A stretch of DNA of 23,235 nt from a virus. The notes beneath the pieces were generated by a model. The model saw only the letters and a program-made list of their open reading frames with translations, made no database searches and was not told where the DNA came from. The position numbers and the translations under genes were made by a program. Positions 544 through 19,834 of the stretch are shown here, one piece after another (position 1 is the first letter of the stretch; every line of letters starts with the position of its first letter). The DNA lies in IMG/VR virus record IMGVR_UViG_3300023178_002147, positions 1 through 23,235 of that record, one strand, 5' to 3'.

Positions 544-600
544 ATTATAGAATCCCCATTATCAACATATAAAGCTACAAAGAATTTTGCTAAAAGTCAA
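544..600 (-). promoter_or_regulatory. Candidate promoter region for the family B polymerase
   Basis: A terminator at 611-637 sits upstream of the polymerase gene, so a promoter is expected in the short gap. Two weak candidates are visible on the minus strand: TTGACT (600-595) followed after 17 bases by TAGCTT (577-572), and a perfect TATAAT (549-544) with no good -35 element, which would give an almost leaderless transcript. The location follows from the layout; neither candidate is confirmed. Confidence 0.3.
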
Positions 601-610
601 GCTTTTTTTG

Positions 611-637
611 GAAAAAATGGGGGGAAATTTTCCCCCC
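611..637 (-). terminator. Strong intrinsic terminator after the TonB-dependent receptor gene
   Basis: On the minus strand, six G's and an A run are followed by a T run and six C's, giving an 8 bp stem with a 3-base loop, then ATTTTTT. It lies about 12 bases after the receptor stop codon. The U tract follows only in the minus direction, so the terminator serves the receptor gene and separates it from the polymerase gene. Confidence 0.85.
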
Positions 638-648
638 AAATTTACCTT

Positions 649-3378
649 TTAGAAATTGACAGATAGTCCTAAGTTGAAACTTCTTGGTGTACCAAGAAAT
701 ACTTCAGCGTTATGAGCAGCGTGAACTTTGTCACCATACCCATTGTATTGACTATTGTCTACCGCATCTTGAACATAAACATCGTCAAGTGCGTTGAAGA
801 TATGTCCACTAAGTGTCATATCTAAACCAGCGATTTCTGGTAGTTTATAAGATAGATGTAAGTCTAACTTTCCATAGGATGGAGATTTCCATACCTGTGC
901 TCTGTCAGCATCACCATCAACCTCACGAGAATCAGGACTCCAATCAGCGTAATGGTTATCATACCATCTGTAAAGTCCTTGTACACTCAATCCTTCGATT
1001 GGTTTTACTGTAAGTCCACCAACATAAGATGTCTGTGGCATATCACCAACTTTTAGATTAGCAAGAGCATACTCATACTCAGTAGATGTTTGTCCAATGA
1101 TTTGGTTATCATCATTGTATTCCATCTCTGTGTAATCACCTTTAGCATCTCCATCAAAATACCAATCTCCGATACTAACAGCGACATCTAAGTCTACCAT
1201 TTCGTGTAGAGCAACTTTAGACTCTATCTCAAAACCACTATGGCTTTGATTCACACCAGTTAGATAAATGATGTCTGTATCGCCTGAATCACCTTGACCT
1301 GATGTTACAGATTTAGTAAGGTTTCTATCCTTCCACTGTGTGTTATAGTAGCTACCTTTAATAGCAACCAACTCACTTCTGTATTCACCACCGATTTCAT
1401 TAGATATGAATTTCTCATTGTCTGGATTCTGTGATACATTTCCATCATAGTCAATTACATTATCTAAGATTGGTGGTTTTTGAACATACCCCATATTAGC
1501 AAATGCTGAGAGTCTGTCGTCAAGATTATACCTAGCTCCACCCTTTACCTGAAAGGTTGTGATAGCGTCAGCTTCTACAAGTTCTTTCTCTACTGAAAAG
1601 AAATCTTTGTAAGTATATCCGATGGTTGAAATACCACCCATACCATAAAGGTTTATCTTTTCTGTATTGTAATTACCCTGTAAGAAAGCACCAAACCAAT
1701 CAACTGTGGTTTCGTTGTGATAGGCGATGATGTCACCTAAACGAACTACTTTACCATCAGGTGCGTTATCATCGGCATAGTCTACATAGTAGTCTCCACC
1801 TAATAAATCACGAACCTCACGGGCGTGTTCTATACCAGCAGTTCTCCAATCGATACCAATCTGAACCTCAAGTTCATCTGATACATCATAGTTTAACTTT
1901 GAAATCAAACCATATGTATTCTGTCTATTGATTGAGTTTCTTAGGATACCAGTAGAACGATTTTCAGAATCAGAGAAAGCAGAATCTACATTAGATGAGT
2001 TCTGAGCAATCTCAGCATCCCAATCCCACATCCAAGGTGAACTTGCGTACCAAGCATTTCCTTCGATAGCAGGTTTTCTACTGACACTACCATATGTACC
2101 AGTTCCACCACCTGAACCACCACTCCAATATAATACTGAAGATAATCTCATATCATCATTTATATCATAGAAATGGTTTAGGTTTACCAATGGCTTATGA
2201 AAGAAGTTTTCTCTTTCATTCAACATACCAGCATTCTTTCTGTCTGTTGTTCTAGCGCCATACATATACCAATATTGTTGTCCTTTGTAATCAGAAGATA
2301 CTGGAGCCCAATTTTGGTTGAAGAACCTACCAGCCTCATACTCAAACTTCTCTCCTTCAACATAAGCTGAATCATTGTATCCATCGATATCTCCAGCTAA
2401 CTCTTGAGAGTAGGTTGCTATGTTCTGTTTGTATAGGTTCTGTCCGTGCCTTTGTGGAGCACCGATAGCGTATAACTCAAATCGTTGTTTGTCTGATACA
2501 GCGTAAGATGTACCTAAATAATAAGCCCAAGCATCTGTCCACGTTCCGTCAATAAAACCATCACCAGTTTTACGAACAATCGTTCCACTTATTGCCAACT
2601 TATCATTAATTAGACCTGAGTTATAGTTCAAGGTGGTTTTTAGAAATCCACCTTCACCGACTTCTTGTTTAAACTTCCCACCTTTTTCGTGAGCAGCAGG
2701 GTCGGTGATAATGTTCATAGTTCCACCAATAGATGGTGTTGCTAGATTTACGGCTGATAGACCTCTTTGCATCTGAATGGAAGAAGTAGCATCACCTACC
2801 CCATCCCAATTAGACCAATAAACCCATCCGTTCTCCATATCATTTTGGGGAACACCATTAATCATCACAGCAACATTTCGTTGGTTGAATCCACGAACAT
2901 TGATACGAGCATCGCCCGCACCACCACCTTGTTGTGTAGCATATACCGATGGTGTAGTATTAAGAATCATTGGAATGTCTTGTGAACCAAGTCTAATTTC
3001 CATCTCTTTCTTATCCACAGTAGTATAGGCAACAGGTGTTGTTTCATCGGCACGAGAAGCAAGAACTTCAAGTGCTGTGAGAGCAACAACATCAGTTTCT
3101 AAATCGAAACTAATACTCCCAACTATATCCCCAACTTCAACTGATTTAGTTTGGGATATGTAACCGATGTATGAAGCAGTAATATCGAAAGTACCAGTAC
3201 CCGTCTCAATGACGAATTTACCCTCAGCGTCTGTTACGCCACCGAGTTCAGTACCTTCTACAACTACATTTGCTCCAACAAGTGGTTCTTCGCCAGTTCC
3301 AACGAAACCAGTAACGGCTTGTCCGAAAACAATACCAACTGACATCATTAGAGTGACGATAAGATTACGATATTTCAT
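649..3378 (-). CDS. TonB-dependent outer-membrane receptor with N-terminal carboxypeptidase-regulatory-like domain
   Basis: Predicted outer-membrane active transporter that uses energy from host TonB-ExbB-ExbD to import a ligand such as a metal chelate, a vitamin or a glycan. Length is 909 residues, normal for the family. Visible parts are a signal peptide (about 1-20, positive start, hydrophobic core), a beta-sandwich carboxypeptidase-regulatory-like domain (about 20-97, with the PLVGANV and GVTDAEGKF signatures), a TonB-box-like stretch (LEVLASRAD, 103-111), a plug domain (about 113-230, with INVRGF, VMINGVPQNDMENG and PSIGGTMNIIT), then a long beta-barrel region ending in the typical terminal Phe (SVNF). 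The ATG has an AAGGAGA site 7-8 bases upstream. The gene is uninterrupted and follows the class II ribonucleotide reductase by 76 bases. Sampled lines run about 40-43% GC against roughly 23-37% for several phage genes here, which suggests acquisition from a cell. The substrate cannot be read from sequence. Presence in a phage replication operon is odd. Confidence 0.95.
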   Translation of the reverse strand: MKYRNLIVTLMMSVGIVFGQAVTGFVGTGEEPLVGANVVVEGTELGGVTDAEGKFVIETGTGTFDITASYIGYISQTKSVEVGDIVGSISFDLETDVVALTALEVLASRADETTPVAYTTVDKKEMEIRLGSQDIPMILNTTPSVYATQQGGGAGDARINVRGFNQRNVAVMINGVPQNDMENGWVYWSNWDGVGDATSSIQMQRGLSAVNLATPSIGGTMNIITDPAAHEKGGKFKQEVGEGGFLKTTLNYNSGLINDKLAISGTIVRKTGDGFIDGTWTDAWAYYLGTSYAVSDKQRFELYAIGAPQRHGQNLYKQNIATYSQELAGDIDGYNDSAYVEGEKFEYEAGRFFNQNWAPVSSDYKGQQYWYMYGARTTDRKNAGMLNERENFFHKPLVNLNHFYDINDDMRLSSVLYWSGGSGGGTGTYGSVSRKPAIEGNAWYASSPWMWDWDAEIAQNSSNVDSAFSDSENRSTGILRNSINRQNTYGLISKLNYDVSDELEVQIGIDWRTAGIEHAREVRDLLGGDYYVDYADDNAPDGKVVRLGDIIAYHNETTVDWFGAFLQGNYNTEKINLYGMGGISTIGYTYKDFFSVEKELVEADAITTFQVKGGARYNLDDRLSAFANMGYVQKPPILDNVIDYDGNVSQNPDNEKFISNEIGGEYRSELVAIKGSYYNTQWKDRNLTKSVTSGQGDSGDTDIIYLTGVNQSHSGFEIESKVALHEMVDLDVAVSIGDWYFDGDAKGDYTEMEYNDDNQIIGQTSTEYEYALANLKVGDMPQTSYVGGLTVKPIEGLSVQGLYRWYDNHYADWSPDSREVDGDADRAQVWKSPSYGKLDLHLSYKLPEIAGLDMTLSGHIFNALDDVYVQDAVDNSQYNGYGDKVHAAHNAEVFLGTPRSFNLGLSVNF

Positions 3379-3408
3379 AATCTGTCTCCTTGTGTTTGTT
3401 TGTGAATA

Positions 3409-3444
3409 GACACATTTTTAATTACAGGTGTGTCGTCTGCCTGT
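3409..3444 (-). promoter_or_regulatory. Possible H-type RNA pseudoknot in the receptor gene leader
   Basis: In the 76-base leader of the receptor gene, ACAGG (3444-3440) can pair with CCTGT (3428-3424). The loop between them contains GACACA (3434-3429), which can pair with TGTGTC (3414-3409). This gives stems of 5 and 6 bp, a 5-base first loop, no gap between stems, and an A-rich 9-base third loop, AATTAAAAA. This is good H-type geometry. It ends about 18 bases before the Shine-Dalgarno sequence. The pairing is seen in the sequence; a regulatory role is inferred. Confidence 0.4.
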
Positions 3445-3454
3445 CCGCATTTCA

Positions 3455-5464
3455 TTAGTTAGCATACTCCTGGTCATCATTGTCACCAGTCAATGGTACG
3501 ATTTCACAACTATCGTTGTTACAGAACTTATCGACTTCCGCCTCTTCGTTCTTTATCACACCAAAAGATAGCTTACCTAATTTTTTTGTTTGTTTATTAT
3601 ATTCTTTCTCATCAATAGCCTCATATGGCATTTGTTGATAAGCACCATAATCGTGTCTTGGTAATAAACTAATACCTTTCAAATGATATTGATAGTAATT
3701 TAAACACGGAGCAATTTGATTTGCTTCTGTTTCAGGATTGAATGTAACCGTACAACTTACCTGATTGTCTGCCCAATGTCTTTGTAAGAAAGCGGCTAAA
3801 CCGAATTGTTCCCAAATCGAAAGTTCAGCCGCTGTTCTAATCCCCTCACCGACATCTACAGGAATTTCTACAACACTTGTAGTATCTTCAGAACCAAATG
3901 CTGGTTCTATTTTGTAACCTGCTTTTTTCAAAGGTTCTAATAATTCTGAATGTTTGGACAACCTAATTCTTCTAATATAAAATCTACTTTCGGGATAATG
4001 TAAACCTGGAGTAGCACCAGCCAATAATGAAACTGTACCACTTGGTTTAACCGAAGTAGTCTTGATTGAGTTTGGTACAGCAAACCAATCAGAGTACATA
4101 TCATCCCATTTCTGAATGACATCATATCCATCATTTAACCACTCCTTTAGTTCATTGATTCCTCTATGTGTAATGAACTGAGCAACACCACTTACAGAGC
4201 AACCTATTCTTCTGTTTCTTAACATAACCCTATTGGTATCACTCCAATGAGTCCTTCCTAATGTAACTGTTTTAGCATACAGATAAGCATACTTTAGTGT
4301 TCTCGCATAATCTTCAAAGTCATCGTGGTTGTCGGGAAATGTCTCTACTAAACAACACAACTCGTATGATTCCAATGATTGTTCTAAACAAGGATTACCA
4401 CCCATAACTCTGTGGTCTTTGTTGTCTCCACCATTCTTCATACGAGAATACTTTCTCATATTATCTAACCACGCAAATCCAGGCTCACCATTATCCACAA
4501 TTCGTTTTGCAGCCTCATCATAATCCATACCCAATTCTGCGAATATACTATTATTACTAGTCCATCCATATGTTTCCCTATGTGGGTTTACTTTATAATT
4601 CTTTAAGTCTAAATACTCTTCTGAATGAGGATCTCCAAATACAATCTCAGCAGTTCTTCTAACATTACCTGCAACAACACACTTACCAATTAGATTCATT
4701 ATATCTACGATTGTTGTGATTGTGATTGGTTCTCCACTATTCTTTTCTAATACCTTTCTGATATCTTCATGCACTTCCATAAGAGGTTCAGCACCACTAC
4801 TAACTCCACCAAACCCACTTATTGGTTCGCCAGCAGGCCTTATCTTTGAGTAGTCAAACTTCACTGGTGCTTGTCCGTGAAAGTAACTTTCCAATAATAA
4901 CTTTAGAGATTCTACCCAACCCTCACGAGTATCTGGTATTTCAAACAATTGTTCTTCTCTTTTCTTCTGTATACCTTTGATTTCTATTTCACCAGCACCT
5001 TTTGTATCAAATCCTACACCGACACCTAACATACTAGCATCCATAAGGAAACAAAAAGGTTTAGAATAATCTTCTTTTAGTGTTTTCGTAGATACGAAAG
5101 CACAATTGTTTAGGGCAGCGTATAAACCTTTCTTTTCTGTGATTGCAGTTCCCATAGCCCAAAGTCCTCTACCAGGTGGTAAAAACTTCATCGTAAAAAT
5201 ACGCTCATACATATCTTGAGCACTCTTCTGAGCCTGCCACGCGTTCCACCCTAATTGATGTGACTCAATCCAATTCTTTTGCATGTTGTATGTACCTTCT
5301 ACAACCCGTTGTACTGTCTCCCACCATCTTTCATTTTTTCCATCTTCTTTAATTCTTGAATAAGTTCTCATATAAACCAACTCACCTAATCCATTAAAAC
5401 CAAACGGCGGTTTTTTTCTTCGAAACTTATTTATAAAATTCTCTGACAATTCAAATCTGTCCAT
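3455..5464 (-). CDS. nrdJ: Adenosylcobalamin-dependent (class II, monomeric) ribonucleotide reductase
   Basis: Reduces ribonucleotides to deoxyribonucleotides for phage DNA synthesis, using coenzyme B12 to generate the thiyl radical; the characterised monomeric enzymes act on triphosphates. It resembles the Lactobacillus-type monomeric reductase: PPGRGLWAMGT near residue 96, first active-site Cys in NNCAFVS (C121), radical site NPCLE (N357, C359, E361), partner Cys C370 at the expected 11-residue spacing, and a C-terminal CxxxxC shuttle pair (C648, C653). At 669 residues it is somewhat shorter than the 739-residue Lactobacillus enzyme. There is no N-terminal ATP-cone and no small-subunit gene in the window, both consistent with class II. 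The ATG has AAGGAG 6 bases upstream. The 57-base leader is very AT-rich and can form an imperfect AU/GU-rich hairpin (5486-5512). It lies between the helicase and the TonB-dependent receptor, in the same direction. The enzyme needs cobalamin from the host or its surroundings. Confidence 0.95.
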   Translation of the reverse strand: MDRFELSENFINKFRRKKPPFGFNGLGELVYMRTYSRIKEDGKNERWWETVQRVVEGTYNMQKNWIESHQLGWNAWQAQKSAQDMYERIFTMKFLPPGRGLWAMGTAITEKKGLYAALNNCAFVSTKTLKEDYSKPFCFLMDASMLGVGVGFDTKGAGEIEIKGIQKKREEQLFEIPDTREGWVESLKLLLESYFHGQAPVKFDYSKIRPAGEPISGFGGVSSGAEPLMEVHEDIRKVLEKNSGEPITITTIVDIMNLIGKCVVAGNVRRTAEIVFGDPHSEEYLDLKNYKVNPHRETYGWTSNNSIFAELGMDYDEAAKRIVDNGEPGFAWLDNMRKYSRMKNGGDNKDHRVMGGNPCLEQSLESYELCCLVETFPDNHDDFEDYARTLKYAYLYAKTVTLGRTHWSDTNRVMLRNRRIGCSVSGVAQFITHRGINELKEWLNDGYDVIQKWDDMYSDWFAVPNSIKTTSVKPSGTVSLLAGATPGLHYPESRFYIRRIRLSKHSELLEPLKKAGYKIEPAFGSEDTTSVVEIPVDVGEGIRTAAELSIWEQFGLAAFLQRHWADNQVSCTVTFNPETEANQIAPCLNYYQYHLKGISLLPRHDYGAYQQMPYEAIDEKEYNKQTKKLGKLSFGVIKNEEAEVDKFCNNDSCEIVPLTGDNDDQEYAN

Positions 5465-5521: not shown

Positions 5522-6892
5522 TTACTCAAATCCCTCAGTTTTTGGCTTTAAGTCATTATATTTTTTAGATAATGTCTGCCTTAAATATTCCTCTGAGTTA
5601 TCCATCTTTCCCTGCGTCTGCTTACCACCGACAGTAGATGCCTCATAAACATCAATCTTACCAGTATTTGTATTTATTTCCGCAGGAAAAGTAATTCCAT
5701 CTACACCGAATCTATTTTTGATTACATGCACTCTACCAGTGTTAGCAATCTTATCTTCCACCTTACGACTTACTGACATAACAAAGTCAGCAGTCATCAC
5801 CTTACTATAATCTTCAGCTACTTTACTAGCATCAATAACATCTTCTTCTAATGAACTACGATTAGCCTGAGAAGCTGTCCATATAGGAATATCAAACTCA
5901 CCAGCAAGTCCTCTCAAATGTTCATAAGTTTCACCAGTAGAAAATCTTTTTTCTTTGTAAAGAGTTATTGGTTTTAGTATGTCAGCGTAATCAACTATGA
6001 CAGCATCAGGTTTTATTTCCTGTATCTCCATTTGTTTTAGGTGAGCTGCTATAGTATTTACTGTAGCTGAACGAGTAGGGTAATATTTTATAATCAACTT
6101 ACCTGTCAATCCATCTATAACCTTTTGAACATCTTCTTGATAGAACTTTATATTAGCAGTTGGTGTTCCACTAAATACTGTATCATATCTCAAACCAACA
6201 TAGTTAGCGTTAAGTTCTAAAGTATAATGAACTACAGTCTTACCCTCTTTTACTAAATGAGCACCCAATGATTGTAAACACCAAGTCTTACCAATACCAG
6301 CAGGTGCAACTAACACACCCAACTCACCACCAGCTAATCCACCATCCATAACATTTGTAACAGCATCCCACGGAGTAGGCAAAGTGGCTCTTACAGATTC
6401 AGTAAGTCTATCTTCTAAAGATATAATGTAATCGTGACCTAAATCTCTTTCACTACCAGCCTTCATAGCAGCATCAATTATTTCTTTTATTTCATCATAC
6501 TTTTTTTGTTCTAACAAATCCACAGCATCTACTATAGCACCTTTTAGAACTTGATTCTTACAAAAGTCTAAAGCCTCCTTTTTTATAAAATCTAAATCAG
6601 TAGCTTCTATGTTTCTCCAAGCATCTTTTAGATTTTCTATAACAGACACTTTTAGAATATCATCATCCATTTGATTTATTTTTATCTTTAGAACTTCTAA
6701 TGTAGGAGCTTTTCTAAACTCCATAAAGTATTTACTGATTTCTTTAGACAACCACTTATTAGCATCTGAATCAAAATATTTTGGTTCTAATATGTCACTA
6801 ATAGTTTGTATGAATTTATTATCTGATAAAAGCGAAGATATTATTTTGGCTTGAAATGTGGGGCCAAACTGATTAAAATTTTCACTCGCCAT
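5522..6892 (-). CDS. Replicative DNA helicase, DnaB / T4 gp41 type
   Basis: Hexameric ATPase that unwinds DNA 5'-3' ahead of the replication fork. Its 456 residues match gp41-type helicases in size. The N-terminal helical domain (about 1-120, starting near FGPTFQAKIISSLL) is followed by a RecA-like motor: Walker A APAGIGKT (196-203), catalytic Glu region LELN near 225, Walker B VIVDYADIL (D301), and the WTASQANRSS sensor motif near 340. The start codon lies inside the end of the small upstream gene (11-base overlap), so translation is probably coupled. It sits in the cluster RecA, 5' nuclease, small basic protein, helicase, reductase. No separate primase or helicase loader is recognised in the window. 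Confidence 0.93.
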   Translation of the reverse strand: MASENFNQFGPTFQAKIISSLLSDNKFIQTISDILEPKYFDSDANKWLSKEISKYFMEFRKAPTLEVLKIKINQMDDDILKVSVIENLKDAWRNIEATDLDFIKKEALDFCKNQVLKGAIVDAVDLLEQKKYDEIKEIIDAAMKAGSERDLGHDYIISLEDRLTESVRATLPTPWDAVTNVMDGGLAGGELGVLVAPAGIGKTWCLQSLGAHLVKEGKTVVHYTLELNANYVGLRYDTVFSGTPTANIKFYQEDVQKVIDGLTGKLIIKYYPTRSATVNTIAAHLKQMEIQEIKPDAVIVDYADILKPITLYKEKRFSTGETYEHLRGLAGEFDIPIWTASQANRSSLEEDVIDASKVAEDYSKVMTADFVMSVSRKVEDKIANTGRVHVIKNRFGVDGITFPAEINTNTGKIDVYEASTVGGKQTQGKMDNSEEYLRQTLSKKYNDLKPKTEGFE

Positions 6893-7061
6893 AAAGTTCC
6901 TTTAATTGTTTTTCTTTCAATTCCATTTGTTTCTTTTTACGATATCGCTCTTTAGCTTTCTTTTGTAACTTTTCTCTATTTCTATGATAGTATTCCATAG
7001 ACCATCTTCGTTGAGCCTCTTTTCTTTCTTCTTCAGAATTATATTTACGATTTCTTCCCAT
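6882..7061 (-). CDS. Small basic, Lys/Arg/Glu-rich protein of unknown function (59 aa)
   Basis: A 59-codon reading frame fills the gap between the 5' nuclease and helicase genes. Its start (ATG at 7061) overlaps the end of the nuclease gene by 17 bases and its TGA stop overlaps the helicase start by 11 bases. The product begins MGRNRKYNSEEERKEAQRRW and ends KELYGE. It is highly charged, predicted mostly helical, and contains YYHRNREKLQKKAKERY in the middle. The tight overlap on both sides and the absence of any other use of this stretch support a real gene. Basic helical proteins of this kind could bind DNA or RNA or contact the helicase, but no family is recognised. It is far shorter than the T4 helicase loader gp59. 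Confidence 0.7.
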   Translation of the reverse strand: MGRNRKYNSEEERKEAQRRWSMEYYHRNREKLQKKAKERYRKKKQMELKEKQLKELYGE

Positions 7062-8091
7062 AAGTCTTCTCAGCCATTTGATTTAGTCTGGCAAAACATT
7101 GAACTAACCAACTGTCCATATTAGGTAATGTAGCAAATAATCTATCCTCTATGAATCTCTTTTGAAATTGTATTTTATTTAGTCTACTGATTGGTTCTCT
7201 AACCTTATCTAAGATTTTAGTTTTAGCAGAAGCGCTGATGTCTACTTCATCTAATTGCATCAACATATAATTTCTTTTCAATAACTCTTCACTATCTTTA
7301 AGTTTTTCATCTTCTTTAACAATATCCTCTATATTAAGTATATTGTCTTCGAGCAAAAGTGGTAATTTTTTTTGAATAGTTTTCAATCCCCATCCACGAA
7401 CTCCATCTATGTTATCAGACTTATCTCCATCGATTGCTCTGTAGACAGCGAAGTTGTGAGATGGAATACCATAGTCCTCTAATACCTTTGGAGGATCGTA
7501 CATCTTCTTTTTTGTAGGAGACCAAACAGATACTCTGTGATTTACCAACTGAAGAAAGTCTTTATCTGTAGACATCAAAACTATATTAGATGTCTTTAGA
7601 ATCTGTTTAGTGATATAAGCCATCGTATCATCAGCTTCTATGTTCTCTATTGTTATTGTTGTTATTGGAAGATAATCCAAATAGTCAATAACTCTCGTCA
7701 ATTGCATAATCATAGATTGATGTTCATCTTCTTTAGTATTAAAATCATATGAACGATTTAATCTTTCAGACATATTTCTACCAGCTTTGTACTGAGGAAA
7801 TACTTTCTTTCGGCGGTTAGACCCACCTTTACCATCAAATACGATAATGGTTCGGGTAGGTCTGATAGTCTTAATAGCGTATCCGATTGACCTAAGAAAA
7901 CCAACTATTCCCCCAACATGAGCTCCGTCATCATTGAGAGTTGGTATAGCGCTGAAACATCTTATGAATGTATTCAAGCCATCTATAATCAATACTTTGT
8001 CGTTAGGTTCTTCTGAATCTAACTCACCACCTTTTTTCTTTATTTCCTGAAGTATTGATAAATACTTACCATTACTCACCGACCACCTCAT
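7045..8091 (-). CDS. FEN-type 5'-3' exonuclease (T4 RNase H-like)
   Basis: Structure-specific 5' nuclease that removes RNA primers and flaps from lagging-strand fragments, as T4 RNase H does. The 348 residues show the family pattern: VLIIDGLNTFIR (D37) for the first metal site, IIVFDGKGGSNRRK (D86) with the following basic helical arch, IENIEADDTMAYI and LMSTDKDFLQL for the central acidic cluster, and a helix-turn-helix-type DNA-binding segment DGDKSDNIDGVRGWGLKTI. The N-terminal 30 residues before the nuclease core are unusual. The ATG at 8091 lies inside the recA-like gene; an alternative start is the GTG at 8079, which has GAGGTGG just upstream and would give a 4-residue shorter product. 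The stop overlaps the small basic gene. Confidence 0.9.
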   Translation of the reverse strand: MRWSVSNGKYLSILQEIKKKGGELDSEEPNDKVLIIDGLNTFIRCFSAIPTLNDDGAHVGGIVGFLRSIGYAIKTIRPTRTIIVFDGKGGSNRRKKVFPQYKAGRNMSERLNRSYDFNTKEDEHQSMIMQLTRVIDYLDYLPITTITIENIEADDTMAYITKQILKTSNIVLMSTDKDFLQLVNHRVSVWSPTKKKMYDPPKVLEDYGIPSHNFAVYRAIDGDKSDNIDGVRGWGLKTIQKKLPLLLEDNILNIEDIVKEDEKLKDSEELLKRNYMLMQLDEVDISASAKTKILDKVREPISRLNKIQFQKRFIEDRLFATLPNMDSWLVQCFARLNQMAEKTYGKKS

Positions 8092-9169
8092 TTGTCATCT
8101 CAACATCATCAATACCTAATTCAGCTTTTGAATATTTAAGTATTACTTTATCACATATTAGTTCGTAACAATGTTGTTTAAACTCTTCATCCTCTAACTT
8201 TTCAGACCAATCTTTAGATTGAAACTTAATCTCTTCACCATTATGGTCTTTCATAGTATACCAAGCACCACCAACTTTGGCAATATTGTGCTCTTTGAGA
8301 ACTTGTAGCCAACTACCCTCATCATCTATACCACTTTCAAAGTAGAGTGGAAACTCTGCTTTTCTAAGTGGAGGACCCAAACGATTCTTAATTACTTGTG
8401 CCAGAATAGTCATACCAATAACATTCTTTTTAGAATCTTTTATCTGTCCTTTATTCTTTAGACGAATACGAGTCGATGCGTGAAATGGAAGAGCTTTACC
8501 ACCTGATGTAGTCCACGGGTCTCCAAACATTACACCGAGCTTTTGTCTGAGTTGATTTGTAAAAACTAATCCGATTCTCTGTCTTCCAATCATCTGAGTA
8601 ATCTTTCTCATAGCTTTACTAATCACAATAGCCTTTGAAGTAGCCCAACCATCTTTGTCGTAGTCTGCGTTTAACTCAACTTTAGTTGTGGCAGCTGCCA
8701 ATGAATCTACTAAGATAGTTACTAACCTATCTTTATCTGATTCACGAACTTTAGTAACAATCTCTTCGATAGCTTCGAATATATCTTCTACTGTTTCTAA
8801 GTGTAAGTATAACATCTTATTTATATCTACACCTATGACACCTAAGAAATCTTCACTAACAGCAGTTTCAGTATCTATATAAACTGCGACACCACCTTTT
8901 TTCTGAGTCTCTGCTAGTAGATGAGCACCGATTAGAGATTTACCACTACTTTCTAAACCATTGAGTTCTGTGATTCTACCAACTGCAATACCACCATTAG
9001 GGCGATTAGAAATAGCCAAATCCAACATAGTTGAACCTGTTGAAACAAATTCCTTAACATCTGTGGGTGTACTGTCTGTACCATCTAAGAAGTAAGCAAC
9101 TTTGTAATCTTTGAATTTCTTATTTAGAGAGTCGGCTAGAACCCCAGCTAAATCATCTTTAACTGACAT
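8072..9169 (-). CDS. RecA/UvsX-like recombinase
   Basis: ATP-dependent strand-exchange protein for recombination-dependent replication and repair. The 365 residues are close to T4 UvsX (391) and RecA (about 350). Walker A is GLESSGKS (71-78). The next strand, VAVYIDTET, carries the expected Glu, Walker B is TILVDSLAA (D155), and the DNA-binding loop region reads FTNQLRQKLGVMFGDPWTTS followed by GGKALPFHAS, closely matching RecA. The ATG has TTAGGAGA about 7 bases upstream. It follows the gp32-like gene, with a hairpin terminator in between that leaves no space for a separate promoter. It therefore probably depends on read-through. It overlaps the 5' nuclease gene at its 3' end. Confidence 0.93.
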   Translation of the reverse strand: MSVKDDLAGVLADSLNKKFKDYKVAYFLDGTDSTPTDVKEFVSTGSTMLDLAISNRPNGGIAVGRITELNGLESSGKSLIGAHLLAETQKKGGVAVYIDTETAVSEDFLGVIGVDINKMLYLHLETVEDIFEAIEEIVTKVRESDKDRLVTILVDSLAAATTKVELNADYDKDGWATSKAIVISKAMRKITQMIGRQRIGLVFTNQLRQKLGVMFGDPWTTSGGKALPFHASTRIRLKNKGQIKDSKKNVIGMTILAQVIKNRLGPPLRKAEFPLYFESGIDDEGSWLQVLKEHNIAKVGGAWYTMKDHNGEEIKFQSKDWSEKLEDEEFKQHCYELICDKVILKYSKAELGIDDVEMTNEVVGE

Positions 9170-9217: not shown

Positions 9218-9976
9218 TTACTTATTGAACAACTCATCGAAAGCAGCGCTGGCATCTTCAACTTTAGCCGAATCAGCAACAACTGCCGAAACTGGCTTTT
9301 CAGTTTCTTCATCACTACTATCATCAGAACTTGGATTCAACCACTCATTAAGAACATCTGTTAGTTCCTCATAAGATAGTTCCTGATATAGTTCAGTAAT
9401 ATCTTTCTGATTTTCTAACAAAGCCTCTAATTGAGCTTTATCTTCTGTGATAGGAGTTTGGTTTGGCTTTACACGAATTGAAGTAGATGGAAAAGATTTT
9501 CCTGTCTCTTCAGCTGTTTTGAACTCTACAGAAACATCACGACCATTGACAGCATCTGTGATATCACCATAGTCTGGATCTGCAATTACAGAAAGTAATT
9601 CCTGATAAACAGTCTTACCAAAACCCCAAAAACGAACACCTTGAGTTTCTTCACCTCTAACAATGATAGGAGCAAAAGTTCTCATCTTTGACTCTAACTT
9701 ACGAGCCATCTGATACTCTTCTCTGTTACCACTTGTTTTAAGTTTTTGAGCAAACTCTTCAATTGGGTCTGGACGACCAAAAGTGATTGGTGACAAATAG
9801 GTTTTGTTATTCAAACCAAAATGAAAGAACAATTCAATAAAAGGATTATCCTTATTGTGTTTGTAAGGCAATACTCTTATGATTTGTTTTCCTGGTTGAG
9901 GTTTCCATAGGTTTGAAGTCCTATTGTTTGTTGTTTGAAGCTGATTAAGACGCTTACGAATAGAATTAATATCCAT
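9218..9976 (-). CDS. Single-stranded DNA-binding protein, T4 gp32-like
   Basis: Coats single-stranded DNA at the fork and coordinates helicase, polymerase and recombinase. The 252-residue protein has a basic N-terminus (SIRKRLNQLQTTNNRTSN), the gp32-type segment LWKPQPGKQIIRVLPYKHNK, then PFIELFFHFGLNNKTYLSP, and a central OB-fold region. The C-terminal tail is acidic (SSDDSSDEETEKP, residues about 216-228, ending FDELFNK), as in T4 gp32, where the tail binds partner proteins. The zinc-binding Cys/His set of T4 gp32 is not seen. The ATG has AAGGAGAATAAAAA upstream. The leader between this gene and the 133-residue gene has two hairpins and may control translation, as known for T4 gene 32. A terminator follows the gene. 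Confidence 0.88.
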   Translation of the reverse strand: MDINSIRKRLNQLQTTNNRTSNLWKPQPGKQIIRVLPYKHNKDNPFIELFFHFGLNNKTYLSPITFGRPDPIEEFAQKLKTSGNREEYQMARKLESKMRTFAPIIVRGEETQGVRFWGFGKTVYQELLSVIADPDYGDITDAVNGRDVSVEFKTAEETGKSFPSTSIRVKPNQTPITEDKAQLEALLENQKDITELYQELSYEELTDVLNEWLNPSSDDSSDEETEKPVSAVVADSAKVEDASAAFDELFNK

Positions 9977-10475: not shown

Positions 10476-12578
10476 TTAACCTTTAATTTCTGGCTTCTTC
10501 GCTTTAATTTCAGATGGATTTCTGTTAGTAGGAGTAGCTGTTACACATCCTTTCTTTGTTTTAGAGAAACCATAACCTGGATCATCTTTAAAGTTCATAT
10601 AACAAGGCTTCTTAATACCATCGATTTCTTCTGAATATGCTTTTCCAGGTTTACCATCTTTCAATCCTATTTTTTGATTACTGTTTCCGAACTTGGTATA
10701 CTCTAAATCATTGTTATTCACTGCTTGCATCATTTTCATCTCTCGTAAATACTGTTTAATAGATTCTTTATATCTTTCTTTTTCTTTATCATCCATACAA
10801 TTACCAGCACCTTTAGCTAAAAACTTTTTATAGAGAGTCTCACCTCTACTCTCAGCATAAGATTCAATATTTTGTGCTTCTTCTTCTGATATTATATTAT
10901 TTTCTAGAGCCCAATTTTTAGTGTCATCGTATTCATCTCTTCTTTCTTTATTTTTTTCATCCGAAGGTGGGTAATCTGGAGGATCTCTATCCTCTGGATA
11001 AAGTGTATAGTAACCATCAAGTAGAGAATTTAACCTTCTTCTTGTTTCCTTACCTTTGTAAACAGTAAGTCTTACTTTATCATCGCTCATTCCTGCACCA
11101 CCACCTTTGTATTTAACACTTTCACCGCCGACAAATTCTAAAGCTACATTTAGATACTTCAAACTTTCGCTTAACTCATCGGCATCATCTAATCCTAAAT
11201 CAGATGTATCTATTGCATTAACAATTATAATATCTGATATTTTAAATGTTTCGCTTGATGGCGCATATACTGAATTTCCTTGACTTAATTTTTCCAACAT
11301 AACCTTTACTTCTGCAAAATCTGCTACGGAATCTTTAAAATCAACACTACTAGCCATATCGACTAAAAGTTGATTCAGTAGTTCATTATATTCTTCCCTA
11401 TCTTTTTCATTACCTTCGGGATCTTTTATTTTCTTCAGTTTTTGTAAAGTGTCAAATACCTTTTTATTTTCAGGTTTATTTTCAGCACCTGCTTTTGACA
11501 GTAAGTATCCAAACCTTTCTTCTGTAACATTAATTATATTTAATGCAGTTTCTCTTCTATCTTCAGGTGATTGCACAGGTCCATAATCAACATATTCAAA
11601 ATCTTCAGAGTTTGCTAAATCATCTATTTGATCATTATATCTAGCTATTTGTCTGCTAATGACGCTAGCTCTTTTCTGTACTTCTTCTTCAGTCATATTA
11701 GGATTATTTTTCCTTACGGCCTTCAGTAGAACATCGTTATCAGGTTGTTTTATTTTTTTCATAGGTTTACCATTAAATTTAATTGAACCATCACTTTGCT
11801 TTTCTATCTTAGCAGTTTTTCTTTTATCTGTTAACTTGTTAGGAACTAAAACTTTTTTACCGACAGCGCCCTCAGAAGATCCTCCAACGAAAACATCATA
11901 TTTTGTTTCCAAATTATTCACCCAATTTTGAAAGGCTGGTGTTTTTACGCTAGTTTTTGTTTGTCCAGGTGGTGGAAATAAACTAACTTTATTTCTAGAA
12001 GGATACCACACTTTTGGTTCGTTGATAGCCAAGTATATTTCAGTTCTACCACTTTCTGTACTTATGAATTTTAAATAATTTTGTGCTAACTCTAGCTCTT
12101 CAGAAGTTAAATCCTCACCTCTAAACATTTTTTCTATTGTGGTAGAAAGATTTTTCTTTATTTCTTTAGTTAGATGTGGTGGATTATCAGGTGCATTTTC
12201 TAATTGTCCATTTACATTTACCATTCTACTTTTTATCATTTTTTCCGGCACCGGAGAAAATGTATCTTCTTTTTCTTCTTCATCTTCTCCTGATTTTACT
12301 TTCTCTATTTCGTCATCAGAAGCATTTTTTGTAACTAAGTCTTGTTTGTCTGGATTATGTTTCTGAACAACATATGTATTTCCACTCTTTTTGTTTTTAA
12401 CAATATCATCTTCATTTACAATGTTATTTAGAAACTCAGCTCTGGCTTCTGAAGCCCATCCAAAATCTACTAATACAGATTCTAACTTCAGTAATTTAGA
12501 TTTACTACTAACATCTGGTTTCCCGTCTGATGTTCTGTAAGCCCACTCTACTAATATTTTATTTAAGTCTGTAATCAT
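10476..12578 (-). CDS. Large charged phage protein of unknown function (700 aa)
   Basis: A 700-residue protein without a recognised enzyme motif. It starts MITDLNKILVEWAYRTSDGK; a short N-terminal module with the pattern EW-YR-DG-P followed by two helices occupies about the first 55 residues. A very acidic/lysine stretch follows (about 86-107, SGEDEEEKED). The rest is hydrophilic, rich in Lys, Glu, Asp and Asn, with predicted helices, and includes GGGAGMSDDKVRLTVYKGKE and, near the end, PCYMNFKDDPGYGFSKTKKG. No signal peptide or membrane segment is visible. The start overlaps the polymerase-like gene by 4 bases (ATGA) with GGAGAAG upstream, indicating coupled translation. The size and modular composition would suit a virion or ejected internal protein, but its neighbours are replication genes. 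Function is not assigned. Confidence 0.8.
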   Translation of the reverse strand: MITDLNKILVEWAYRTSDGKPDVSSKSKLLKLESVLVDFGWASEARAEFLNNIVNEDDIVKNKKSGNTYVVQKHNPDKQDLVTKNASDDEIEKVKSGEDEEEKEDTFSPVPEKMIKSRMVNVNGQLENAPDNPPHLTKEIKKNLSTTIEKMFRGEDLTSEELELAQNYLKFISTESGRTEIYLAINEPKVWYPSRNKVSLFPPPGQTKTSVKTPAFQNWVNNLETKYDVFVGGSSEGAVGKKVLVPNKLTDKRKTAKIEKQSDGSIKFNGKPMKKIKQPDNDVLLKAVRKNNPNMTEEEVQKRASVISRQIARYNDQIDDLANSEDFEYVDYGPVQSPEDRRETALNIINVTEERFGYLLSKAGAENKPENKKVFDTLQKLKKIKDPEGNEKDREEYNELLNQLLVDMASSVDFKDSVADFAEVKVMLEKLSQGNSVYAPSSETFKISDIIIVNAIDTSDLGLDDADELSESLKYLNVALEFVGGESVKYKGGGAGMSDDKVRLTVYKGKETRRRLNSLLDGYYTLYPEDRDPPDYPPSDEKNKERRDEYDDTKNWALENNIISEEEAQNIESYAESRGETLYKKFLAKGAGNCMDDKEKERYKESIKQYLREMKMMQAVNNNDLEYTKFGNSNQKIGLKDGKPGKAYSEEIDGIKKPCYMNFKDDPGYGFSKTKKGCVTATPTNRNPSEIKAKKPEIKG

Positions 12579-13879
12579 TCAAACTTCTCCGTAATATCCC
12601 TCATTGTATGATAATCAGATCCTTTTGATACTTTAACAGGATACTTTTTATTTTGTTCTATTACTTTCTTTACCATTTTTACAAATTTCAATCCATCGTC
12701 TATATGAAAGTCAAATAAAAATGAATCATAGTTATACAATACTAATTTACTATTAAAATTCTGAATTTTAGGTAAAAGTTTGCTTAACATTTTCATATTA
12801 TTTTCTGTTTCCATTAACTGAATAAGATAGTTAAATACCTTATTTTTGTTCATATCAGACAGATTCTTCCTATATATTCTCTTACTATAAATATCAGATT
12901 CTATGAAATTATTGGATTTATATCGCTTCCAAACATCATCAATATATACTTGAACTTTAGCAAAAAATGGATTGGTTTTTATTACTTCATCGGGTATGTG
13001 TCCATACAAATACTGAAATGAAAGTCCTTTAGCTTCATCATAACTTGTATTATACAGTTTAGCCATATGTTTGTGAACAGAACCTTTTGGAAATTTGTAG
13101 TCAACCACATCCCCAATTAGACGAAGATGATAAGCGTCATAGTCCATCTCTACTAACATTCCCTTTTCACCAAACCTACTAATGAATTGCTTTCTACTGC
13201 CATCCTTTTTGTTAAGAGCAGCAAAGTTCAAACCACCGAATCTATTTGATGGGCGGCCTGTAGCTGTGTAAGGATTGTATTCTGAATATACCATACCATT
13301 GGTTGTCTGTAGCCCATTACTCTCTATAGTTTGTAGTGACTCCAAAACATCTTCGTTATATATTTTGAACACAGAATCATTTTCTTTACGACCAGCAAAT
13401 ATAGATAGTTTTATTTTTTCAACCATTTTTCTACACCACTCTAAATGTTTCATAAGTGGTATCACACAGTTTATATTTGACTTTTTGTAGTATTGTCTGG
13501 CAAAAAACTCGTGAGAATTTGTTGTTACTCCTTCTAAATCTATAGTATCATTTTGTTCTAAATAGTATCTCATATTAACATCAGATACATTTTTCCAATC
13601 AAAGAATGATAATAACTTTTTCTTATCATATGTAAATACTGTTTTAGAAGTCCAAATATTTTCTAATTTAAGAGAACTTAGATTTAAAGCATCCGCATGC
13701 CTAAATGGTAGAATAAACTCTTTACTGTTTTCCGATATAGTCTTTACAAAAAGTAAACAAAGGTTTGTATCTTTGGGATGCTTATTGAAATCACATTCTA
13801 TTGGAATAACTATAGAATCAAACTCTGAAAAGGATTTAGCGAATGATTCAAACTCTTTATCTGTTTCAACTACTACCAA
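12575..13879 (-). CDS. Short divergent family A DNA polymerase-like protein
   Basis: A 434-residue protein with the motif order of PolA-type enzymes but much shorter than the roughly 605-residue Klenow region. Residues 20-115 resemble a degraded 3'-5' exonuclease fold: IPIECD near 26, TVFTYDKKKLLSFF near 80, then VSDVNMRYYLEQND. The polymerase part has TGR (207-209), motif A VEMDYDAYHLRL with the catalytic Asp (D246), motif B AKGLSFQYLYG with the K-x3-F-x3-Y-G pattern intact (K284, F288, Y292, G293), and motif C YNYDS with the second catalytic Asp (D385). Differences are His at the usual Glu after motif A (H251), Tyr in place of the motif B Arg, and Ser after the motif C Asp. The exonuclease acidic residues look mostly lost. 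The likely start is TTG, overlapping the thyX stop by 7 bases with GGAG upstream. It may be a specialised or weakly active polymerase. Confidence 0.78.
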   Translation of the reverse strand: MVVVETDKEFESFAKSFSEFDSIVIPIECDFNKHPKDTNLCLLFVKTISENSKEFILPFRHADALNLSSLKLENIWTSKTVFTYDKKKLLSFFDWKNVSDVNMRYYLEQNDTIDLEGVTTNSHEFFARQYYKKSNINCVIPLMKHLEWCRKMVEKIKLSIFAGRKENDSVFKIYNEDVLESLQTIESNGLQTTNGMVYSEYNPYTATGRPSNRFGGLNFAALNKKDGSRKQFISRFGEKGMLVEMDYDAYHLRLIGDVVDYKFPKGSVHKHMAKLYNTSYDEAKGLSFQYLYGHIPDEVIKTNPFFAKVQVYIDDVWKRYKSNNFIESDIYSKRIYRKNLSDMNKNKVFNYLIQLMETENNMKMLSKLLPKIQNFNSKLVLYNYDSFLFDFHIDDGLKFVKMVKKVIEQNKKYPVKVSKGSDYHTMRDITEKFE

Positions 13880-14565
13880 TTGTGCGCTTCACTCCATAGT
13901 TCTGTTGTTTTAGGATACACTTCTTTCATCTGTTCTAACAGTACCTTAGCATATTCTTGTATCTCCCATTGAGATGTCTTTTCATTTCTTAATTCTATGA
14001 AGTTCATAATTGCTTGAAACGATGCTGTCCAATATACTTCGGTATATTGATTCAATGGAAGTATTGCTCTTGCTTGTTCTTTACCAACTCCCATCTGTAA
14101 TAGATATTTGTATTGTTCTTTTGCGTGAAACACAGCCATATCCCAATGATGTTTTGCAGAACTCTGATTCTCAACTGCTCCCTCTGTTGCTTGTTTGTTA
14201 TCTTCTGATTGTTGTCTAAAAACTTCTGGTGTATAAAAGTCTTCAACTACAACATACCTACCACTAATCTCATTCCAAGCGTGATCTTTAGTAGAAGAGT
14301 TAGATGTTGTCTCTATTCCAACCACGTGTTTATACCATTGTCTCATAACAAACTCAGGAGCTTTTATATGGAACTGAACTTGTAAATGTCTGAATGGAGA
14401 ATAGTGTTTATATTTTGCTAAATAACGAACTAATCTTTCGTCTGATTTATCAAATTTTGTTTTTCTTTTTCCGAATGATACTCTAGCAGAATTGACGACA
14501 GTCAAATCGTTACCTAACGAATCGACAACCTCAATAAAGCCTTTATCTAAAACTTTACTTTTCAT
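13873..14565 (-). CDS. thyX: FAD-dependent thymidylate synthase ThyX
   Basis: Makes dTMP from dUMP with methylenetetrahydrofolate, FAD and NADPH, supplying thymidine nucleotides for phage DNA. The 230 residues carry family hallmarks: VNSARVSF near 24, HYSPFRH (54-60), FVMRQWYKH (73-80), WNEISGRY (97-104), and the C-terminal ARAILPLNQYTEVYW followed by a helix ending in ELR. The usual RHR-x7-S signature is altered: the RHR position reads KHV and about 12 extra residues (TTSNSSTKDHAW region) lie before the ISGRY Ser (S101). AAGGG lies upstream of the ATG. It overlaps the polymerase-like gene by 7 bases. No folate reductase is in the window. It works together with the ribonucleotide reductase further along. 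Confidence 0.92.
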   Translation of the reverse strand: MKSKVLDKGFIEVVDSLGNDLTVVNSARVSFGKRKTKFDKSDERLVRYLAKYKHYSPFRHLQVQFHIKAPEFVMRQWYKHVVGIETTSNSSTKDHAWNEISGRYVVVEDFYTPEVFRQQSEDNKQATEGAVENQSSAKHHWDMAVFHAKEQYKYLLQMGVGKEQARAILPLNQYTEVYWTASFQAIMNFIELRNEKTSQWEIQEYAKVLLEQMKEVYPKTTELWSEAHNW

Positions 14566-19540: not shown

Positions 19541-19834
19541 TTATGAATTACTTAATTGAACTGCTTCTAATATATCATCTATTACTATTGGTATTCTAAT
19601 TTTTTTTCCAGATGGTGGAGATAACTTACCATCACTAAATTCATTAGCTTTAGCTATAATCCACCACAAATTTGAGTCTCCATAATATCTGTAAGCTATG
19701 GAATCAAATCTATCTTCTTCAAATGGATAGATAAATATATCAGAATCTTTTATAGGTATGTTAGGAACTATAGTTGGTCTATAGTATCTAACATCATTCT
19801 TATCTTTTAATATCTTAGCGTTTTCGTATCTCAT
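19541..19834 (-). CDS. LysM-like / T4 gp53-like baseplate protein (97 aa)
   Basis: A 97-residue protein with a LysM-type core: DRFDSIAYRYYGDSNLWWII, AKANEFSDGKLSPPSGKKIR and IPIVIDD. In contractile tails, proteins of this type (gp53 in T4, LysM tail proteins in other phages and injection systems) join baseplate parts or contact cell-wall glycan. It is shorter than T4 gp53 (196 residues), with only a 25-30 residue N-terminal extension before the core. The start lies a few bases after the stop of the 1009-residue gene, whose last codons supply GGAG. Its place between two large structural genes supports a baseplate role. The LysM pattern is clear; identity as gp53 is inferred. Confidence 0.8.
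   Translation of the reverse strand: MRYENAKILKDKNDVRYYRPTIVPNIPIKDSDIFIYPFEEDRFDSIAYRYYGDSNLWWIIAKANEFSDGKLSPPSGKKIRIPIVIDDILEAVQLSNS

Follow-up and report, generated by a model that had tools for sequence, protein, structure and literature searches.

Genetic context of the receptor gene

We analysed a 23,235-bp IMG/VR virus record, hereafter referred to as the window. Nearly all of its large open reading frames lie on the minus strand, and its content reads as a myovirus module. Besides tail and baseplate genes, including a baseplate wedge subunit (19541–19834) that points to a myovirus context, the minus strand encodes the thymidylate synthase ThyX (13873–14565), a gp32-like single-strand DNA-binding protein (9218–9976), a UvsX/RecA-like recombinase (8072–9169), a 5′–3′ exonuclease (7045–8091) and a DnaB-like replicative helicase (5522–6892). 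These are followed by nrdJ (3455–5464), a class II adenosylcobalamin-dependent ribonucleoside-triphosphate reductase that passes the TIGR02505 cut-off, by a TonB-dependent receptor (649–3378) and by the N terminus of a family B DNA polymerase, polB (3–539), truncated at the window edge. The receptor thus has nrdJ immediately upstream and polB downstream, all on the minus strand. Nucleotide-metabolism genes around it comprise nrdJ and ThyX, with a dUTPase in some relatives. The window also encodes a 434-aa protein (12575–13879) with a weak match to the C terminus of PolA, in a phage that has PolB too.

The signals around the receptor gene agree with an earlier note on this DNA, which had described a good ribosome-binding site and a dedicated terminator. 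The leader between nrdJ and the receptor (3379–3454, minus strand) carries AAGGAGA just before the ATG; it has no Rfam match, and hence no cobalamin riboswitch. The stop codon is followed by a strong intrinsic terminator (618–638, minus strand; TGGGGGGAAAATTTCCCCCCA-TTTTTT), with a 9-bp G-C-rich stem and a T run (z = −2.5), which is kept in relatives, including one that has lost the receptor (L203, see below). Between this terminator and polB lies a promoter-like element read by eye, TTGACTT-N17-TAGCTTTA (550–605, minus strand), also present in L203, which we take to resemble Bacteroidota-type promoters. Since a terminator and then a promoter-like element precede polB, the receptor is probably the last gene of the nrdJ-side unit, probably with no read-through to polB. 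The placement of the receptor inside a replication operon holds as regards its position between nrdJ and polB on one strand, but the receptor probably ends one unit instead of lying within it.

An intact TonB-dependent receptor

The gene encodes 909 aa from an ATG start, without an internal stop. The protein is laid out like the full-length receptor claimed earlier: a signal-peptide-like N terminus (residues 1–19, MKYRNLIVTLMMSVGIVFGQA, read by eye), a CarbopepD_reg domain (residues ~20–98), a TonB-box-like segment, LEVLASRAD (residues 103–111), a plug (residues 112–225) and a barrel (residues 226–909) whose last residue is Phe. In Pfam, CarbopepD_reg_2 matched residues 28–100 above its cut-off (E = 2.9e-14) and Plug (PF07715) matched residues 112–220 (E = 1.1e-13; 52 bits against a cut-off of 23.9). 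No Pfam barrel model scored; the barrel is seen in an AlphaFold2 model built with 48 homologs as input (pLDDT 82.7, pTM 0.78) and in its fold matches. The 50 best PDB matches listed by Foldseek for this model are all TonB-dependent transporters, including PqqU, Fiu, FhuA, FecA and BtuB.

The fold search did not discriminate between substrates, as PqqU, Fiu, FhuA and BtuB match alike. A sequence search of solved structures matched only the N-terminal part of the receptor and gave no pointer to a substrate. Assignment to the SusC/RagA family was rejected, with TIGR04056 scoring 53.1 bits against a curated cut-off of 368.25 and aligning the N-terminal part alone. No SusD gene lies beside the receptor, the adjoining genes being nrdJ and polB. 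One PHROGs family of unknown function, phrog_5687, matches part of the protein.

The receptor resides in a group of T4-like phages

Scanning 2.9 million viral contigs, we identified 325 viral stretches that encode relatives of the receptor, of which the best 80 are 75–100% identical to the window protein. A small number of unannotated contigs from gut phages also code for relatives, these ~31% identical. In the viral loci, the exonuclease gene is followed by helicase, nrdJ, receptor and polB on a single strand, and both this order and the nrdJ–receptor adjacency are kept across independent assemblies. The receptor lies between its flanks in 70 of the 74 loci that contain both, most of which were selected via the receptor itself. 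In a sample chosen via the helicase, it is present in 36 of 40 decidable loci and absent in 4 (absence requiring at least 1.5 kb read beyond nrdJ); 40 further loci end too early to decide. Of 25 long viral records, which reach 165 kb, 23 hold a single receptor copy each, and the 165-kb record encodes T4-type terminase, portal, major head (capsid) and baseplate proteins. Two phage records contain nrdJ without a receptor, and nrdJ is joined directly to polB in 4 loci from 2 lineages.

These data bear on whether the gene is an assembly chimera or a host contaminant, which the earlier note had considered unlikely. Its proposed search of viral genomes for receptors beside nrdJ or polymerase genes found them in many contigs. 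As a sign of contamination, it had named direct nrdJ–polB junctions in related phages combined with a receptor restricted to bacterial contigs. Direct junctions do exist, but the receptor is found on more than 100 viral contigs at recurring junctions, and one of the empty sites is itself a deletion scar of the receptor, which turns this test in the receptor's favour. Moreover, the same junctions, at varying sequence divergence, turn up in numerous independent metagenomes. The viral copies also group in a clade separate from the bacterial SAR406 genes, barring one cellular copy. We therefore consider a chimera or contamination to be exceedingly improbable.

The region between nrdJ and polB is a cargo hotspot that, in other phages, houses genes for dUTPase and peroxiredoxin as well as DNA methylase-like and glycosyltransferase-like ones. 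A glutamine synthetase gene (PF00120/PF03951) lies beside the receptor in nine loci (L012:7337–8314, L015, L016, L036, L038, L044, L049, L077 and L184). A small putative lipoprotein with a lipobox-like LLFGC motif and no Pfam match directly follows the receptor in L002 (12789–13292) and eight other loci; it may serve as a partner to the receptor or else as a lipoprotein involved in superinfection. One relative carries a manA RNA (RF01745, 73 bits) upstream of gp32 (L009:2826–3026). In two others, nrdJ is interrupted by a ~1-kb insert (L048, 2789–6284; L312, 3387–7926), likely an intron or an intein/homing element, and the helicase of L312 is split too.

Exchange, relocation and loss among phages

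Pairwise distances of the backbone genes (gp32, UvsX, helicase and polB) agree with each other (rho = 0.7–0.8). Receptor distances do not follow those of the backbone genes (rho = −0.03 to 0.10) and follow those of nrdJ weakly (rho = 0.28). This independence from the backbone indicates that recombination carries the receptor from phage to phage while its genomic position stays fixed.

Other phages have a second receptor site. There, the receptor follows a gene for a 280-aa membrane protein, itself located after hsp20, and lies upstream of a module containing peptide deformylase and queuosine-type genes (these two named by eye). The pair of phage Hsp20 and 280-aa membrane protein before this site spans 372–1921 in L294 and 5922–7888 in L339. 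The second site is empty in G253, which has its receptor at nrdJ instead, and in G263, which has no receptor in 96 kb.

The receptor is also dispensable in some relatives. In L203, whose relative L031 bears the receptor, nrdJ is fused to the final ten codons of the receptor (SFNLGLSVNF-stop), followed by the receptor terminator. At this junction (4380–4560) we found an 8-bp microhomology, ACCAAGAA, which occurs in both genes of L031. The L203 junction is a deletion scar of the receptor, which marks the gene as accessory and able to be lost. We count the two alternative sites and the exchange between backbones in favour of selection for having the receptor.

Descent from SAR406 and probable exchange with cells

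The earlier note had called for a tree with cellular receptors to identify the donor lineage. In this tree, the viral receptors are nested among those of SAR406 (Marinimicrobia; Candidatus Neomarinimicrobiota, Fidelibacterota), which identifies SAR406 as the donor; the best cellular identities to the viral receptor are 66–71%. The receptor is intact, phage-borne and cellular by origin. SAR406 is also the probable host of the receptor-bearing phages, a reading drawn mainly from the receptor itself. A search of SAR406 genomes for phage genes found no close nrdJ or UvsX, the best UvsX being 50% identical, and so gave no direct link to the host. One SAR406 contig (G144 contig C100; L277, L374) carries, arranged as in the receptor-bearing phage group, a distant phage-like UvsX (50%) and nrdJ (~30%).

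An early tree, limited to the closest viral copies, had pointed to a clade of viral genes alone. With broader sampling, one cellular copy fell within this clade, and a viral-only clade was rejected (AU test, p = 0.0002). This copy lies at 986–3736 on a small contig of a single SAR406 metagenome-assembled genome (G001:C59; L082/L254). On one side it is flanked by a DegT-type gene 84–87% identical to that of three other SAR406 genomes (G062, G055 and G058), and on the other by the start of a native SAR406 receptor, which continues on contig C47 (L387) before DnaG. At the same locus, the three other genomes hold the native receptor alone. The phage-type copy has a host-type leader and signal peptide, and more than 50 identical bases run around its start. 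The simplest reading is a phage-to-host transfer, which we regard as probable from this arrangement. Less simply, phages may have captured the gene several times from a SAR406 lineage that is missing from the sample.

Purifying selection and conservation of the transport parts

dN/dS among viral copies, a measurement that the earlier note had proposed, indicates purifying selection, with a median omega of 0.14 for the receptor (Nei–Gojobori; 2461 non-independent pairs with dS 0.1–1.0), compared with 0.08 for nrdJ and 0.07 for UvsX. As a host-derived gene stably carried by phages under purifying selection, the receptor is a candidate auxiliary metabolic gene. Across 105 viral copies, consensus identity is 0.95 in the plug, 0.84 in the TonB-box-like segment, 0.833 in the barrel strands and 0.815 in the non-strand residues of the barrel. 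This pattern indicates that a transport-competent protein is being kept, and phages quite probably retain it to change uptake.

The earlier note had offered three roles. The one with the best support is to feed the infected cell, given the conserved TonB-box-like segment and plug; replacement of a degraded host receptor found no specific support. The third, superinfection blocking, emerges as a weaker rival. Here, the phage receptor would displace the host's own receptor on the cell surface, or compete with it there or for TonB, and thereby keep rival phages that use the host receptor from adsorbing, comparable to phage porins or to the action of T5 Llp and N15 Cor on FhuA. TonB receptors commonly serve as phage receptors. 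Both phi80 and N15 encode Cor, which inactivates FhuA (PMC11436027). Swapping of the receptor among backbones is expected for a host-matching or competition trait, and the small lipoprotein-like gene directly after it in 9 loci would suit the same role. However, a decoy would need neither a conserved TonB-box segment nor a conserved plug, and both are conserved. The non-strand regions of the viral barrels are barely more variable than the strands and score above those of cells (0.722), which argues against an arms-race decoy; arms-race hypervariability of the loops was not seen in the 105 viral copies. The window phage also has no lipoprotein gene beside its receptor. We consider superinfection blocking or surface remodelling rather unlikely as the main role.

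Cobalamin is an unlikely cargo

Because NrdJ requires adenosylcobalamin, on which the earlier note had not remarked, vitamin B12 import for the adjacent reductase was examined first. The case for it is the position of nrdJ, directly upstream at almost every locus, together with its score above the cut-off for adenosylcobalamin-dependent reductases. The presumed host lineage points elsewhere. Exactly one cobalamin riboswitch was found in 10 of 14 SAR406 genomes, and the gene under its control, where readable, is a different, BtuB-like TonB receptor of ~660–705 aa, whose plug is at most ~25% identical to that of the phage receptor. This riboswitch-linked gene is not orthologous to the phage receptor. 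An Rfam search detected no cobalamin riboswitch in the window, in five phage loci or in seven loci of cellular orthologs. Furthermore, the receptor lies away from nrdJ in the phages that use the alternative site, and the two nrdJ-bearing records without a receptor also argue against a strict partnership. On these grounds B12 appears quite unlikely as the cargo.

Cellular neighbourhoods hint at nucleic-acid products as a possible cargo

Outside SAR406, the cellular orthologs are followed in 17 loci, directly downstream and on the same strand, by a gene for a secreted nucleotide pyrophosphatase/phosphodiesterase (PF01663). These loci come from six phylum-level groups: Bacteroidota, Ignavibacteriota, Calditrichota, Chlorobiota, Balneolota and KSB1. 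Among 38 SAR406 genomes that hold both the ortholog and an S1/P1 nuclease gene (PF02265), the two lie at most 6 kb apart in 14, with 13 of these pairs on the same strand. The 38 genomes were compiled manually and include several close relatives; some of their orthologs are only ~35% identical, and assembly fragmentation reduces the count. Where it was read, in G004, G122 and G137, the nuclease has a PF01663 gene next to it, and G038, G122 and G137 are among the cells closest to the viral clade in the early tree.

The proximity of cellular orthologs to pyrophosphatase and S1/P1 nuclease genes favours import of nucleotides or nucleic acids. As a tentative lead, not proof, the cargo may thus be nucleotide or nucleic-acid breakdown products, in keeping with the position of the phage gene amid genes of nucleotide metabolism. 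Other evidence tempers this reading. No PF01663 gene lies next door in 53 of 69 cellular loci with readable downstream sequence, none was found in three large phage records, and the nuclease linkage in SAR406 may be a single inherited arrangement. The other SAR406 neighbours of the orthologs are mostly housekeeping genes (SRAP, DnaG and GalE). Our literature search returned nothing useful on TonB receptors linked to nucleic-acid uptake.

The receptor could instead import another scarce nutrient, such as an iron-siderophore, peptide or saccharide, or replace a host receptor lost in infection. Siderophore and PQQ receptors are among its fold matches, and a SusC-like receptor of the megaphage Mar_Mega_1 has been proposed to raise carbohydrate uptake (PMC9723777). 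Yet no siderophore or polysaccharide-degradation genes recur beside the cellular orthologs, and the receptor falls short of the SusC family cut-off. These options are improbable, to about the degree of superinfection blocking.

A model for phage-directed uptake

We propose that a lineage of T4-like marine myoviruses captured the receptor gene from a SAR406 bacterium and that phages keep it as an accessory infection gene, mostly between nrdJ and polB. The receptor would be expressed with the DNA-precursor genes during infection. As known for its family, it would be exported by its own signal peptide via the host Sec/BAM route and its nutrient import powered by host TonB. Judging by the neighbourhoods, the most likely cargo (nucleotides, oligonucleotides or other phosphodiesters from nucleic-acid breakdown) would provide the bases and phosphorus from which phage DNA is made. 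We give this explanation as a whole, a captured and retained SAR406 receptor importing nucleic-acid products for phage DNA synthesis, a probability of roughly 0.5. A broader version is slightly more doubtful than the cargo assignment itself: in marine SAR406 phages, a mobile nucleic-acid or nucleotide importer derived from hosts and linked to ribonucleotide reductase, by which the infected cell would scavenge extracellular DNA and RNA products, including those of lysed neighbours, and whose gene would return to host chromosomes.

TonB receptors are a main gate for scarce nutrients in the outer membrane and also a main doorway for phages. A SAR406 receptor that is kept by phages under selection, swapped among them and apparently returned to cells makes re-equipping of the cell surface by lytic phages a testable question, and suggests that phages remodel what an infected cell can import. 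The receptor-bearing myoviruses are a common ocean group, and SAR406 is abundant and uncultured. If the cargo were nucleotides or nucleic acids, products of viral lysis would be linked to viral replication in the nutrient-poor ocean.

Comparison with known systems

The openly accessible journal literature that we searched does not describe this receptor family from any phage, the nearest being the different, SusC-like TonB-dependent receptor of the marine megaphage Mar_Mega_1 (PMC9723777). In BFVD, the single named TonB receptor match is SusC-like (A0A8D9FQQ5, 'uncultured marine phage') and is probably this Mar_Mega_1 protein. Both are TonB-dependent receptors of marine phages. However, the Mar_Mega_1 receptor is 12% identical to ours over the fold alignment, belongs to another subfamily and occurs in one megaphage family, whereas the window receptor is a full-length SAR406-type protein found on more than 100 T4-like contigs beside nrdJ.

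The cellular SAR406 receptors with CarbopepD_reg and plug domains have the same domain order and ~60–71% full-length identity. They differ in location: their genes lie on the chromosome, in the vicinity of those for SRAP, pyrophosphatase, S1/P1 nuclease or primase, and outside a phage replication module. The cobalamin receptor BtuB shares the TonB-dependent fold, and the neighbouring NrdJ lends it a B12 logic, but it is not orthologous, and SAR406 keeps a separate, riboswitch-controlled BtuB-like gene.

Lytic cyanophages keep pstS, a host-derived uptake gene for a periplasmic binding protein. The shared feature is a phage uptake gene of host descent; the window phage instead supplies an outer-membrane transporter, predicted to be energised. 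Phage-encoded outer-membrane porins are exemplified by Lc/NmpC of PA-2, and 'OmpC porin' entries from Caudovirales are among the BFVD matches. Like the receptor, these are outer-membrane barrel genes that may alter uptake and superinfection. They are passive and belong to temperate coliphages, whereas the window receptor is predicted to be TonB-coupled and belongs to marine T4-like myoviruses. What sets the present gene apart is that it encodes a host-derived outer-membrane receptor, predicted to be energised, that is widespread and mobile among phages and apparently exchanged with their hosts.
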